The position numbers were made by a program, and so were the translations under genes. A stretch of 64,000 nt of DNA from Candidatus Microgenomates bacterium (GTDB lineage Bacteria; Patescibacteriota; Microgenomatia; UBA1406; HO2-37-13b), in assembly GCA_025449735.1 (NCBI GenBank), contig JANWIV010000003.1, forward strand, positions 1 through 64,000, written 5' to 3'. Of this stretch, positions 20,594-26,458 are shown in pieces. Positions within the stretch are counted from its first letter, which is position 1; every line of letters begins with the position of its first letter. Under the pieces are notes generated by a model, which had not been told where the DNA came from, did not search any database, and was given only the letters and a program-made list of their open reading frames with translations.

Positions 20594-23500
20594 ATGGCCA
20601 TACTTGATTTCCTCAAGAAGGATAGTAGTGATTCTAGTACAACAACACCAAATAGTGACGCCAGTGCTGTCCAAACAACTCAAACCACTACTCAAACCGT
20701 GCAACCGGTAGTTCCATCGCAGCCTTACAACGGTATTGGGTCACCTCCGGGAGGAGGACAGTCTTACAATGGCATTGGTGCCCCACCACAAGGCCAGGCT
20801 TATAGTGGTATCGGTACGCCAAATCAACCGGTTCAAACGCCTTCCAGTCAACCGGTAGCTACAAATGTCACTCCTACCGCACCAAGTGCAGTCACTACTG
20901 ATCAAGCTAGTCCAAGCGCGACTTCAGCCCAAACACCGGCTGGCGATAAAAATCCAACTCCTACTCCAGGCGCGACTCCGCCGGCCGAAGGTCAAGATAA
21001 ACAAACTCAACTTGATTTAATGACTCACTTGACACAACGCTCTAATCGAGTGTTTGTCGAAGCGCAAAAAAAGGCTAGTGAACTAAAGGTTGAGCTTGTT
21101 GACTCTGAACATGTCCTTCATGGGCTCTTGTCTGATTCAGAAATATACAAAATAATGACTGATGACAAAATTCAGCCACAAATGATTGAGCAAGAACTCG
21201 ATAAAATTTATCAAAAGGGAGCCAGTCAAACTACTCCCCAACCATCGCCACGCGTCAAGCGTATTCTTGAAAACTCACTCATCACGGCTCGTAAACTAGG
21301 CTATGAATTTATCTCCCCTGAGCATATTTTACTCTCACTATATGAGGAGGGTGAAGGCGCTGGAGCCCGAATTCTTTCTAAATTAGGGCTTAAAAAAGAT
21401 GATTTAAATAAAAAAATAACTGGTAAAAAAGAAGGTTTGAAAGAAGACGCTAAAGATGGCGACAAAACGACTGGAACCCTAGAACAGTATTCAGTTGACT
21501 TGACCGCCAAGGCCGAACAAGGACTCCTTGACCCAGTGGTGGAGCGAAGTGAGGTCATTGAGAGAGTAATTCATATTTTGTCTCGACGAACCAAAAACAA
21601 TCCTTCACTTATCGGTGAGGCGGGAGTGGGAAAAACAGCAATAGTTGAGGGACTGGCGCAAAAAATTGCCAGCAAGCAGGTACCAGAGTCTTTAATTGGG
21701 AAGCGCGTCCTTAAGCTTGATCTAATGAGCATTCTAGCTGGTGCTAGTCATCGAGGCGAATTTGAAGAAAGAATGAAGAAAGTAATCGACGAAATCGTCG
21801 CCTCAGAAGGTAAAATCATTTTATTTATCGATGAAATCCACAATTTAGTTGGTGCTGGAGCTGGTGGTGAAGGCTCTCTTGATGCTTCAAACTTCCTCAA
21901 ACCATCGCTCGCCCGCGGTGAGTTGCAACTTATTGGCGCCACTACCATCACCGAATATAGGCGGTATATTGAAAAAGATCCAGCGCTCGAGCGACGGTTT
22001 CAACCGATTGTGGTGCCGGAACCAACGATTGAACAAAGCATCAAAATGCTCAAAAGTCTTCGCGAAAAATATGAAGCCTTTCACCGAGTCAAAATCCCAG
22101 ATGCTGCCATAGAAACTGCCGTCAAGCTTTCCAAGCGCTACGTCGGTGATCGATATCTTCCTGATAAAGCCGTTGACTTGATTGATGAGGCGGCAGCGGC
22201 AGTAAGATTGCCACTCATTTCCTTGCCTGAAGAAATTAGATCAAGCGAAGAACGATTGGCACAACTCAAGCAAGAAAGTGATGAGTCGACAAAAAGCGGT
22301 AATGCTGTCAAAGTCAGAATCTTGAAATCAAAAATTGATGATCTTGAAGTCGAGCTAAAAGACAAACAAAGTCAATATGAGCTTAAGAAGGGTCAAACCA
22401 CTAGCGAAGTGACACCTGAAATCATCAAAGATGTTATTGCCCGCTGGACCAGCATACCAATTTCAAAAATAACCGAATCTGAGGTGGAAAAACTGAAAAA
22501 ACTTGAAGATATCATGCATGAGGAGTTGATCAATCAAGATAATGCCGTTTCCTCGGTCTCTGAGGCGGTGCGTCGTGGCCGAGCTGGTCTTAAATCAACC
22601 AATCGCCCGGTGGGAAGCTTCATCTTCTTAGGACCGACTGGAGTCGGAAAAACCGAACTCGCTAAGGTGCTGGCTGGAATTCTCTTTGGCCAACATGAAG
22701 CAATGATTCGATTTGACATGACAGAATACATGGAAAAACATGAGGTCGCCAAAATGCTTGGTGCCCCTCCAGGATATGTTGGTTATGAAGAGGGTGGCAC
22801 ACTTACAGAAGCAGTTCGCCGCAAACCCTACAGCGTAGTCTTATTTGATGAAATTGAAAAAGCACACCCTGATATTTTTAACATTCTGCTGCAAATTCTT
22901 GATGATGGCCGGCTAACAGACAACAAAGGCCATGTAATCTCATTTAAAGAAACCGTCGTCATTTGCACCTCAAATATCGGTACCAAGACAATCCAAGATG
23001 AAATAATGGCTAGTGGCAAAATTGATATTGAAGAACCAAATGTCCTTTCCACTTTTGCTTTCTCTCCAAGAGGACGACAAATAATGACCATTATGGGCAA
23101 AGTCTTTGAAAAAGATGGTGCGGGCGGTAAATGGAATAATAAGACATTGCTTGATTATTTTGCTGGTTCCCAAATTATCGCTCCACAGAAGAATGTCGAT
23201 AATAATGAAGCAAAAAATAGCGAACCTTCAAAAACCAAAACTTTCCCTGGTAAAGAATTTCATAGTCACGCTATGTCTTCAAAAGGAGTGGAGTTAATTA
23301 CCGTAGATGATACCATGTATATTCGCACCTCTACCACCGCCAAAGAATGGACGGCTATTAGTCTTATTGATTATTTCAAGGATTCTGTAGTCATCAATGC
23401 TTTGCCTGATGCTCCAGAGGAGCAGCTGCCGACAGCGAGAGTCAATACTCATGCCTTTACTCCAGATGAGCGAGAAATTGTCACATTGGCCGATCGTTAT

Positions 23501-24655
23501 TGGACACGAAAAGAAAGTGATAAAAATTGGCAAACAGGCACGCTTAAAGATTATTTCGCTGACTCAACATTGGCCCCAGCCAGCGTTAATGATGGAGCTC
23601 AGAAAAACCCGTCACAAAATATGCCGACTGACCCAAACAAAACAGGATTGCCCAAGGATTCTGGATCAACAAAACCTGGGCTACCAATCAACTATTGGGA
23701 TATCCATACCATCGCTCCTGACTCTTCAGAATATATTGTAGTTGGCGACGATATTTATACTCGCAAGCAAGGAGCTAAAATATGGGCAAAACAGGATTTG
23801 AAAACATTCTTCGGAGCCGATTTCCCAATTGAAAATGAGCTGGAAGAGAAGCAAAAAGTTGAATCCGAACTGGATAAAAATAAATATGAAAGAACTAAAG
23901 CGAAAGTTATGGGTCAACTAAGAGACTTTATGCGTCCGGAGCTTATCAATCGATTTGACGAAGTAATCATCTTTGAACCGCTGAAGTATATTCACATGAT
24001 CAGCATTGTGGAGCTTAATCTAAAAGCATTAACTCACCTAATGGAAGATCAAGATATGGGCTTCTCCTGGACAGAAGTTGCGGCCAAAGAAATCGTCCGT
24101 CAAGGCTTTGATCCAATATATGGGGCCAGACCGCTTCGTCGCACCATTCAAAAATTAATCGAAAATCCAATTTCCAGCCTCATCATCGAACACAAGGTTG
24201 AAGCGGGCAGCGCAGTTCATGTTGATTTTGATGGAGAAAATTTTGTCTTCAATATCGAACATGTTGAGCTTGTACCGGAATCTAGTTTGAAGGATAAAAA
24301 AATCCGTAAATTTATGTGTGTCGATAGTCATCATATGTTTGACACTGAAGTGCCTGAAAATGCCACTATCATTTGCCCAATTAATGCCGGCGAACCAGTC
24401 AAGGAGGTCATCGAAGATGAAAAAGAGACGGCTACTGATAATTCAAAAGCAACTATTGAAACTCCCGACAAATTTAATTCAAGCGTTGAGCCAAACAAAA
24501 TAGCAACGTTGAAAACTGAGCCAAATCTCAATCAAGCATCAAGCGCTCCACAATCTACTCCTGAGATGAAGAATCTCCAAGATAGGTTGACTACTGCTAG
24601 CAATGGTAATGGACACCAAACTCGTCCGGTTGTTGGCTTAGGTAGCGCATCATGA
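20594..24655 (+). CDS. ClpC-like AAA+ unfoldase with a repeat insertion in the second ATPase domain
   Basis: The 1353-residue protein is much longer than ClpC (about 810). In order: a Pro/Gln/Thr-rich segment with YNGIG repeats (1-135), a Clp N-domain (about 140-260), ATPase 1 with GEAGVGKT at 341-348, a short ClpC-style middle domain (about 550-610), ATPase 2 with GPTGVGKTE at 680-688, and a low-complexity tail. Between the sensor-1 TSN (792-794) and RPELINRF (1114-1121) ClpC has about 40 residues; here there are about 320. This insertion holds four related modules at 820-856, 892-928, 952-988 and 1038-1073, each ending W...L.DYF or similar. It replaces the ClpP-docking loop region. Its last codons overlap the next gene. 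Confidence 0.93.
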
Positions 24656-24996
24656 TATCTACAATTCTTGCTCAAAAACTAAATATTGGTGGTCGCACTA
24701 TTGAAGGACCCTTAAAAATAACTCTTCCAGGCGGGGCTGAAAATACTGATCCTAAACTGGGTGATATTGTCAGTCTTTTATTTGCCTTAATTTTGCCCAT
24801 TGCCGGCTTGCTGCTATTTTTTTACCTAGTCGCCGGAGGCTTCAACATCATGATGTCAAGAGGTGAACCGGAGGGTCTGGAAAAGGGGAAAAAAAGAATT
24901 ACCTCGGCACTAGTAGGATTTTTTATCCTCTCGTTGGCCTTCATATTCAGTAAGCTTCTAGGTCGCATTTTTGGCCTTGGTGGCGGAATTTTTTAA
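24652..24996 (+). CDS. Two-helix TrbC/VirB2-like membrane protein
   Basis: The 114-residue protein has a short polar N-terminus and two hydrophobic segments (about 45-67 and 85-105) joined by a basic loop, [15 protein letters not shown]. This pattern, with a GG.N.M..G.PE.....K.RI core, is that of small TrbC/VirB2-like proteins common in Patescibacteria. In secretion systems such proteins form pili; here no other secretion genes are nearby. The start overlaps the Clp stop as ATGA, so the two products are made together. Function unknown. Confidence 0.75.
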
Positions 24997-25120: not shown

Positions 25121-26458
25121 ATGTTTTTAAAACCTAAGATCCAAGAAGTAATTGTGCTTTCGGTTGGGGGTAGTCTAATTGTCCCCAATGGTGGTATTGA
25201 CGTCAAATTCTTGCGCGATTTTAATGATTTTATACGCAAACATATTAAGAAAGGTCGTAAATTCTTTATTGTCATTGGCGGTGGTCAAACTGCAAGAAAT
25301 TTTATCGATGCCGGTAAACGTATCGTCGACCAGATGCCTGATGAAGAGCTTGATTGGCTCGGGATTCATGGTACTCGGTTGAACGCCCATCTTATTCGAA
25401 CTATTTTCAGAGATATTGCTCATCCCAGAATTATCACTAAATATGACAGGCGCGCTTTTGGAATTAAAGAACCGGTGATTATTGGCGCTGGTTGGGAACC
25501 GGGTTGGTCAACCGACTATGATGCGGTGCTACTAGCTCGCGATTATAATGCGTCAGTCATCATCAACTTATCTAATATCGATTATGTCTACAACAAAGAT
25601 CCTAATGTCTACAAAGATGCCAAACCAATTAAAAAAACTACCTGGCAATATTTCGAGACACTTGTCGGTCAAGAATGGGTACCTGGCACCAGCGCCCCCT
25701 TTGATCCAGTTGCTAGCCAACTAGCCAAGAGACATGGAATAACTGTCATCATCACTAATGGTCATAAATTCAAGAATTTAGAAAATATCCTCAATGGCGA
25801 ATCATTTAAAGGCACTGTCATCACTCCATACAAAATTGATGCGACCTTTTACGATCGAGATTATTTTGAGGGGGACAAAAGCGAATATGCATGGGCCTAT
25901 ACCCAATCTTTTTTTGGCCGATTTTTAAATTCTTTGGTCAATCTTTATCGAGCAGCTTGGATTGCCTGGGTAATTAAGCCTAAGAATTGTCTCGATGTCG
26001 GCTGTGGCACTGGACTTCTCGTCAAAAACTTAAGAAAATTTGGTATCGAAGCTTATGGTATTGAAATCTCTCAATACGCACTTGATCGAGCTGATAAACA
26101 AGTAAAGCCTTATTTAAAATTCGGCGATATCACCAAAATTCCTTATGAAGCGGACACTTTCGACGTTGTCGTCACCTTTGATGTGCTTGAACATCTAGAG
26201 CGATCAAAATTGCGCCGTGCCATTGATGAATCGGTAAGAGTTAGTCGTAAATATGCCATTCATAAAGTGTTTACCAATGAGAATTATTATTTGCGCTGGT
26301 TTCACAAAAATGATTTTTCGCATTTGTCAGTCCTCAGCAAGCACTTTTGGTTAAAAATGTTTCAATATATAGATGATGCCGTAATAGTCCGCAAGCTTCT
26401 CTTTAGACTACCTTCTTTTTTTGAAACCATTTTTATTCTCCGAAAAAAAACCAGTTAA
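25121..26458 (+). CDS. Fusion of archaeal-type UMP kinase and a SAM-dependent methyltransferase
   Basis: Residues 1-230 form an amino-acid-kinase-fold domain with LSVGGSLIVPNGG, VIGGGQTAR, STDYDAVLLA and NLSNIDYVYNKDP, the pattern of archaeal-type UMP kinase that makes UDP. Residues about 280-445 form a class I methyltransferase with CLDVGCGTGLLVKNL (motif I) and VTFDVLEHLE. Both domains look intact and there is no internal stop or start at the join. I know of no common fusion of these two activities. The methylated substrate cannot be told; the C-terminal part resembles small-molecule methyltransferases. A terminator hairpin sits directly before the ATG. Confidence 0.85.
   Translation: MFLKPKIQEVIVLSVGGSLIVPNGGIDVKFLRDFNDFIRKHIKKGRKFFIVIGGGQTARNFIDAGKRIVDQMPDEELDWLGIHGTRLNAHLIRTIFRDIAHPRIITKYDRRAFGIKEPVIIGAGWEPGWSTDYDAVLLARDYNASVIINLSNIDYVYNKDPNVYKDAKPIKKTTWQYFETLVGQEWVPGTSAPFDPVASQLAKRHGITVIITNGHKFKNLENILNGESFKGTVITPYKIDATFYDRDYFEGDKSEYAWAYTQSFFGRFLNSLVNLYRAAWIAWVIKPKNCLDVGCGTGLLVKNLRKFGIEAYGIEISQYALDRADKQVKPYLKFGDITKIPYEADTFDVVVTFDVLEHLERSKLRRAIDESVRVSRKYAIHKVFTNENYYLRWFHKNDFSHLSVLSKHFWLKMFQYIDDAVIVRKLLFRLPSFFETIFILRKKTS

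Follow-up and report, generated by a model that had tools for sequence, protein, structure and literature searches.

The 1353-residue Clp protein encoded in the analysed window, a stretch of 64,000 nucleotides from a Candidatus Microgenomates genome, carries within its second ATPase module (D2) a large insert that is predicted to fold into a four-bladed β-propeller and lies at the site of the ClpP-docking loop. We consider it probable, at roughly 60%, that this protein is a ClpP-independent unfoldase or disaggregase of the ClpC lineage which would present six binding propellers at its exit face. This reading draws on the computed motor motifs, insertion site, predicted fold and conservation, and on the absence of both a GF motif and canonical ClpP. 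The machine is probably rewired to something other than ClpP.

The gene is a single open frame without internal stop and is collinear with its relatives over the full length, and a pseudogene or a frameshift was rejected on these grounds. Pfam recognized AAA_2 (E 1.7e-65), AAA_lid_9, ClpB_D2-small and Clp_N, and the nearest solved relatives among PDB sequences are the ClpC proteins of B. subtilis and S. aureus (best E 2e-233), with the N domain aligning with ClpC from residue 145. Walker A and B are intact in both AAA+ modules, as are the D2 pore loop (GYVG) and sensor 2 (Table 1), and the D2 Walker motif at residues 680-688 is invariant among the aligned relatives (alignment A1) except for V/T. 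Because these motifs are preserved, the motor should work, and we predict an active two-ring machine. The low-complexity N-terminal extension contains a YNGIG/YSGIG motif three times (aa 45-74; 20726-20815, +). A C-terminal CxxC...CxxC stretch resembling a zinc ribbon, present in L149 and L151, is decayed here (aa 1239-1266; 24308-24391, +). The same genome encodes a second Clp-like ATPase of 746 amino acids with N-terminal membrane helices, a degenerate D1 and no GF motif (G000:C4:33973-35718; L152-L154).

In ClpA and ClpC, the ClpP-binding IGL/VGF loop sits between the TSN and RPE motifs of ATPase 2. The original prediction had estimated this spacing at about 320 residues, and the count from T792-S793-N794 to RPELINRF (1114-1121) is 322. 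It had also held that the insert takes the place of the docking loop, which agrees with the phmmer alignment to B. subtilis ClpC: query residues 801 and 1097 correspond to ClpC residues 666 and 681, so that 295 residues stand between the same flanks that enclose only 14 in ClpC, and the propeller falls on the site of the VGF ClpP loop. In the AlphaFold2 model the insert interrupts D2, which itself matches ClpC from ClpC-ClpP complexes and NBD2 of ClpB with TM scores of up to 0.84. No intact IGF-type loop persists inside the insert, which retains no GF tripeptide.

The insert had been described as four modules with a shared pattern, and these are truly homologous repeats. All six module pairs align profile to profile with E-values of 3e-12 to 9e-9 and scores of 46-67, whereas 150 column-shuffled controls reached no more than 8.7. 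They are, however, not separate modules but the blades of one hemopexin-like β-propeller, as judged by AlphaFold2 and Foldseek. Both when D2 was modelled together with the insert (22 sequences) and when the insert was modelled alone, each module formed four strands and a short helix with pLDDT of about 90-95, and the prediction closes a single propeller, for which reason four independent modules were rejected. Foldseek matched the insert to hemopexin-like four-bladed propellers with E of about 1e-6 and TM scores by target length of 0.70 for MMP9, 0.69 for both Lathyrus LS24 and vitronectin and 0.61 for hemopexin; the top match by E-value was a designed six-bladed propeller with a lower TM score. 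These models predict a hemopexin-like four-bladed propeller. Since sequence identity to such propellers is about 7-12% and a Pfam match is missing, the likeness is a statement about the fold and not about the family: the hemopexin repeat PF00045 gave no match up to E 1 in the insert of the 1353-residue Clp, and none up to E 10 in two inserts, in a motorless relative (G002) and in a membrane-anchored protein (L118), both described below. Pfam matches on the inserts were at chance level only, including a weak PSII_BNR match (E 0.012) that is perhaps an echo of the propeller. The insert profile found nothing among PDB sequences (best E 1.4), and no second copy of the insert turned up in the own genome.

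Conservation within the insert peaks in the loop between blades 2 and 3. Across 37 Clp inserts, a count without the inserts of G043 and G050, which are divergent and do not keep the loop well, the mean frequency of the top residue is 0.82 in the 16 loop residues aa 932-947, compared with 0.56-0.65 in the blades. The low-complexity linkers that were thought to join all modules are found between blades 1 and 2 and between blades 3 and 4; the joint of blades 2 and 3 is the exception. In the relative L046 the linkers are short. The loop is absent from the secreted propellers and from the G002 protein, and as the latter has lost it together with the motor, we suggest that the loop may touch the motor.

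Table 1 Features of the Clp gene and its insert, with residues of the 1353-residue protein and nucleotide positions in the window.
Feature	Residues	Positions	Strand	Basis
Clp unfoldase gene: N domain, D1, short ClpC-type M domain, D2 with propeller inside, C-terminal tail		20594..24655	+	Pfam and ClpC matches
D1 Walker motif, intact	341-349	21614..21640	+	motif position
Middle domain, short, ClpC-type	558-601	22265..22396	+	gapless alignment with B. subtilis ClpC
D2 Walker motif, intact	680-688	22631..22657	+	motif position
D2 pore loop GAPPGYVGY, intact	723-731	22760..22786	+	motif position
D2 Walker motif, intact	748-756	22835..22861	+	motif position
Interval from TSN to R1114, site of the ClpP loop in ClpA/ClpC (322 aa)		22967..23935	+	alignment, motif positions
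Propeller blade 1	817-861	23042..23176	+	AlphaFold2 strands and helix
Propeller blade 2	889-933	23258..23392	+	AlphaFold2
Blade 2-3 loop, 17 residues	932-948	23387..23437	+	conservation; highest in the insert
Propeller blade 3	949-993	23438..23572	+	AlphaFold2
Propeller blade 4	1034-1078	23693..23827	+	AlphaFold2
Helix returning the chain to D2	1081-1113	23834..23932	+	AlphaFold2 helix 449-482 of the modelled stretch
D2 sensor-2 GARPLRRTI, intact	1177-1185	24122..24148	+	motif position

Loss of ordinary ClpP docking had been proposed, together with a check of propeller genomes for clpP, and the enzyme is indeed very unlikely to dock in the usual way. An xGF docking loop occurs neither in its interval nor in the short-loop relatives inspected, a GF motif is retained by none of the close relatives, whether they have the propeller or not, PF00574 has no match in the own genome (88.7% complete), and no canonical ClpP was found in 57 relatives. 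Weak ClpP matches were obtained in six of these 57 (four inspected): three represent ClpP-like proteins that are divergent, short (about 190-220 amino acids) and not tied to the propeller, and the others score lower. HslV or proteasome subunits gave no match in 56 of the 57. Canonical ClpP (E<1e-75) is present in nine sampled genomes of the class, from families f164 and f174, and all six ClpP-bearing genomes inspected have a separate ClpC with LGF, IGF or MGF at the loop. One genome (G470; L194, L186) encodes a canonical xGF ClpC with ClpP as well as a GF-less ClpC-like paralogue. The short-loop orthologues are likewise devoid of GF and of ClpP. Docking therefore disappeared either ahead of the insertion or independently of it, and the insert was rejected as the cause of ClpP independence.

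The insertion is shared by many close relatives, a point that had been raised with the original prediction: a strong insert match (E<1e-10) is found in 47 of the 83 genomes of the order, where the profile gave 52 matches in total, the remaining five covering the flanking helix alone and not being counted. Most of the related loci come from genomes named Roizmanbacteria or from other Microgenomates. Within the class, families f155, f165 and f169 contribute a further 16 sampled genomes whose long Clps have a propeller (ten inspected). Among 380 genomes of the phylum there are, besides two of the order, one clear non-Clp match (G339) and one weak match (G424), and the propeller is essentially absent from the phylum outside the class. 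Given its presence in 47 of 83 genomes of the order and in three other families of the class, the insertion is ancient. In a tree of the Clp core calculated without the loop, all propeller Clps fall into one supported clade (96/83), together with genus g16, which has a short loop, and others. A single gain followed by several losses would be the simplest reading, of which the tree is no proof. The propeller is dispensable for the motor, given that it is missing from the orthologues of g16 and a few more. In L151 (G458:C194), a second whole propeller is nested in blade 1 of the first, giving eight blades.

A genome of the same family, G002, encodes at its clp locus (L148 3668-4726) a protein of 352 amino acids that consists of the D2 large domain only and four blades. 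The protein has lost the N domain, ATPase 1 and the catalytic function of ATPase 2, whose Walker A now reads GPTGPAKT and whose Walker B reads FANIE. No other close full-length homologue was found in this genome. The gene is preceded by genes for GroEL, a RodZ-like protein and a dTDP-sugar dehydratase and followed by genes for a pilin-like protein, UMP kinase and RecF. Here the propeller is kept without a motor, since all four blades are retained on a dead, truncated D2, and the gene may be undergoing loss instead of being functional.

Related propellers were also found outside Clp proteins, namely in the membrane-anchored protein L118 of 250 amino acids and in secreted, enzyme-like proteins (L160-L163) that carry signal peptides and, in some cases, GH2, DUF2961 or dockerin-like parts. 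Counted by eye, every one of them has four blades, except that L118 may have three or four. They have the blade pattern in common with the Clp propeller, and within the class the profile matched them down to E 1.7e-13, a value obtained before these proteins joined the profile. The secreted propellers differ from that of Clp in their carriers and in the missing blade 2-3 loop. In secreted GH2 or DUF2961/dockerin-like proteins, an accessory binding role is usual for such domains.

Compared with ClpC of ClpP systems (B. subtilis, S. aureus, M. tuberculosis ClpC1), the protein has the N domain, D1, short M domain and D2 motifs in common, whereas the xGF interval of about 14 residues is replaced by a propeller region of 295 residues and canonical ClpP is not found in the genome. 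With ClpB/Hsp104 it shares the absence of a ClpP loop and presumed ClpP independence, but the M domain of ClpB is long while here it is of the short ClpC type, and the NCBIfam ClpB score of 928 bits is under the cut-off of 1232 bits. ClpP independence itself is not new, since ClpC-like enzymes without LGF are known: ClpIb of Actinomycetota has a ClpC-like short M domain and no LGF loop, and is presumed to be ClpP-independent (PMC10149685). The 1353-residue Clp resembles ClpIb in the short M domain and the missing LGF motif. ClpIb, however, has about 5 residues at the loop and no folded domain there, belongs to another phylum and exists beside ClpB and ClpC (PMC10149685). Hemopexin, the C-terminal domains of MMPs, vitronectin and LS24 are built, like the insert, of four blades of four strands and a helix. 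These known propellers are eukaryotic extracellular or seed proteins, whereas the insert lies within a cytosolic motor. In the literature searched we found no description of a folded propeller at the ClpP-loop site and no paper covering both hemopexin and Patescibacteria.

We propose that the two-ring motor would thread proteins through its pore, and that each subunit would hold one propeller on two hinge segments at the exit face of ring 2, where it would replace the ClpP-docking loop. A hexamer built like ClpC would then show six propellers around the pore exit; this position is inferred from homology with ClpC-ClpP rather than from a model of the hexamer. The propellers would most likely form a binding platform for a partner protein or for emerging or aggregated substrate, and the blade 2-3 loop may serve as contact to the motor or to the partner. 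Recruitment of a partner or substrate by the propeller becomes likelier because the motorless G002 protein retains it. More tentatively, we speculate that a binding propeller of a type otherwise known from extracellular proteins of the lineage replaced the ClpP dock once, long ago in Microgenomates, redirecting the motor exit to a new partner through the blade 2-3 loop, and that the propeller outlived the motor in one lineage and works there alone; we consider this fuller history less likely than not.

The propellers might instead bind no outside partner and mediate subunit packing or tail-to-tail pairing of hexamers in a resting or storage state. The dimeric hemopexin domain of MMP9 is among the best fold matches, hemopexin domains can dimerize, and conservation of the blade 2-3 loop is restricted to proteins that retain the motor, as expected of a ring contact. 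Head-to-head resting states are known for ClpC, although it is the M domain that forms them (PMC5699869). We nevertheless regard such an assembly module as unlikely: the G002 protein retains the propeller with no ring left to assemble, and the sister lineages presumably assemble without it. Coupling of the unfoldase to a substitute protease, be it a divergent ClpP-like protein, FtsH, Lon or HtrA, would suit the position of the propeller on the protease-docking face and the short ClpP-like proteins of a few relatives. We consider it still less probable, as these genes are sporadic (3/57), missing from the own genome and not linked to the propeller, and HslV and the proteasome are absent from nearly all relatives. 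To our knowledge, FtsH, Lon and HtrA do not need an outside unfoldase.

It is least probable, and in our view improbable altogether, that the propeller is a mobile binding domain tolerated without a role of its own in a loop freed by the loss of ClpP. This loop does appear unconstrained in ClpP-less relatives, being short, variable or a charged stretch of 148 residues (L075); moreover, the propeller has seemingly been lost several times, and one lineage (G458) carries the nested second copy. Yet conservation in 37 inserts from several families covers the four blades with their tryptophans as well as the blade 2-3 loop, and in G002 the blades have survived the loss of the motor.

A binding platform at the pore exit, the reading that we prefer, touches the question of what becomes of a Clp unfoldase once its protease disappears. 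Clp motors have a site that is able to accommodate a whole domain, and a large bacterial lineage without canonical ClpP has kept the motor and placed a folded domain where the protease docked. The question becomes testable because related lineages without the propeller are natural controls and one lineage retains the binding domain alone.

No neighbouring gene tracks with the propeller, a point against the preferred reading: the clp locus has the same gene order whether or not the propeller is present, and the gene neighbours were rejected as propeller partners on that ground. Overlapping the clp stop codon, a protein of 114 amino acids with two membrane helices is encoded at 24652-24996 (+), weakly similar to Mbov_0395-type pilin-like proteins; almost every locus with sufficient flanking sequence has a homologue of it close to clp, propeller or not. 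Further downstream, at 25121-26458 (+), an archaeal-type UMP kinase is fused to a SAM methyltransferase.
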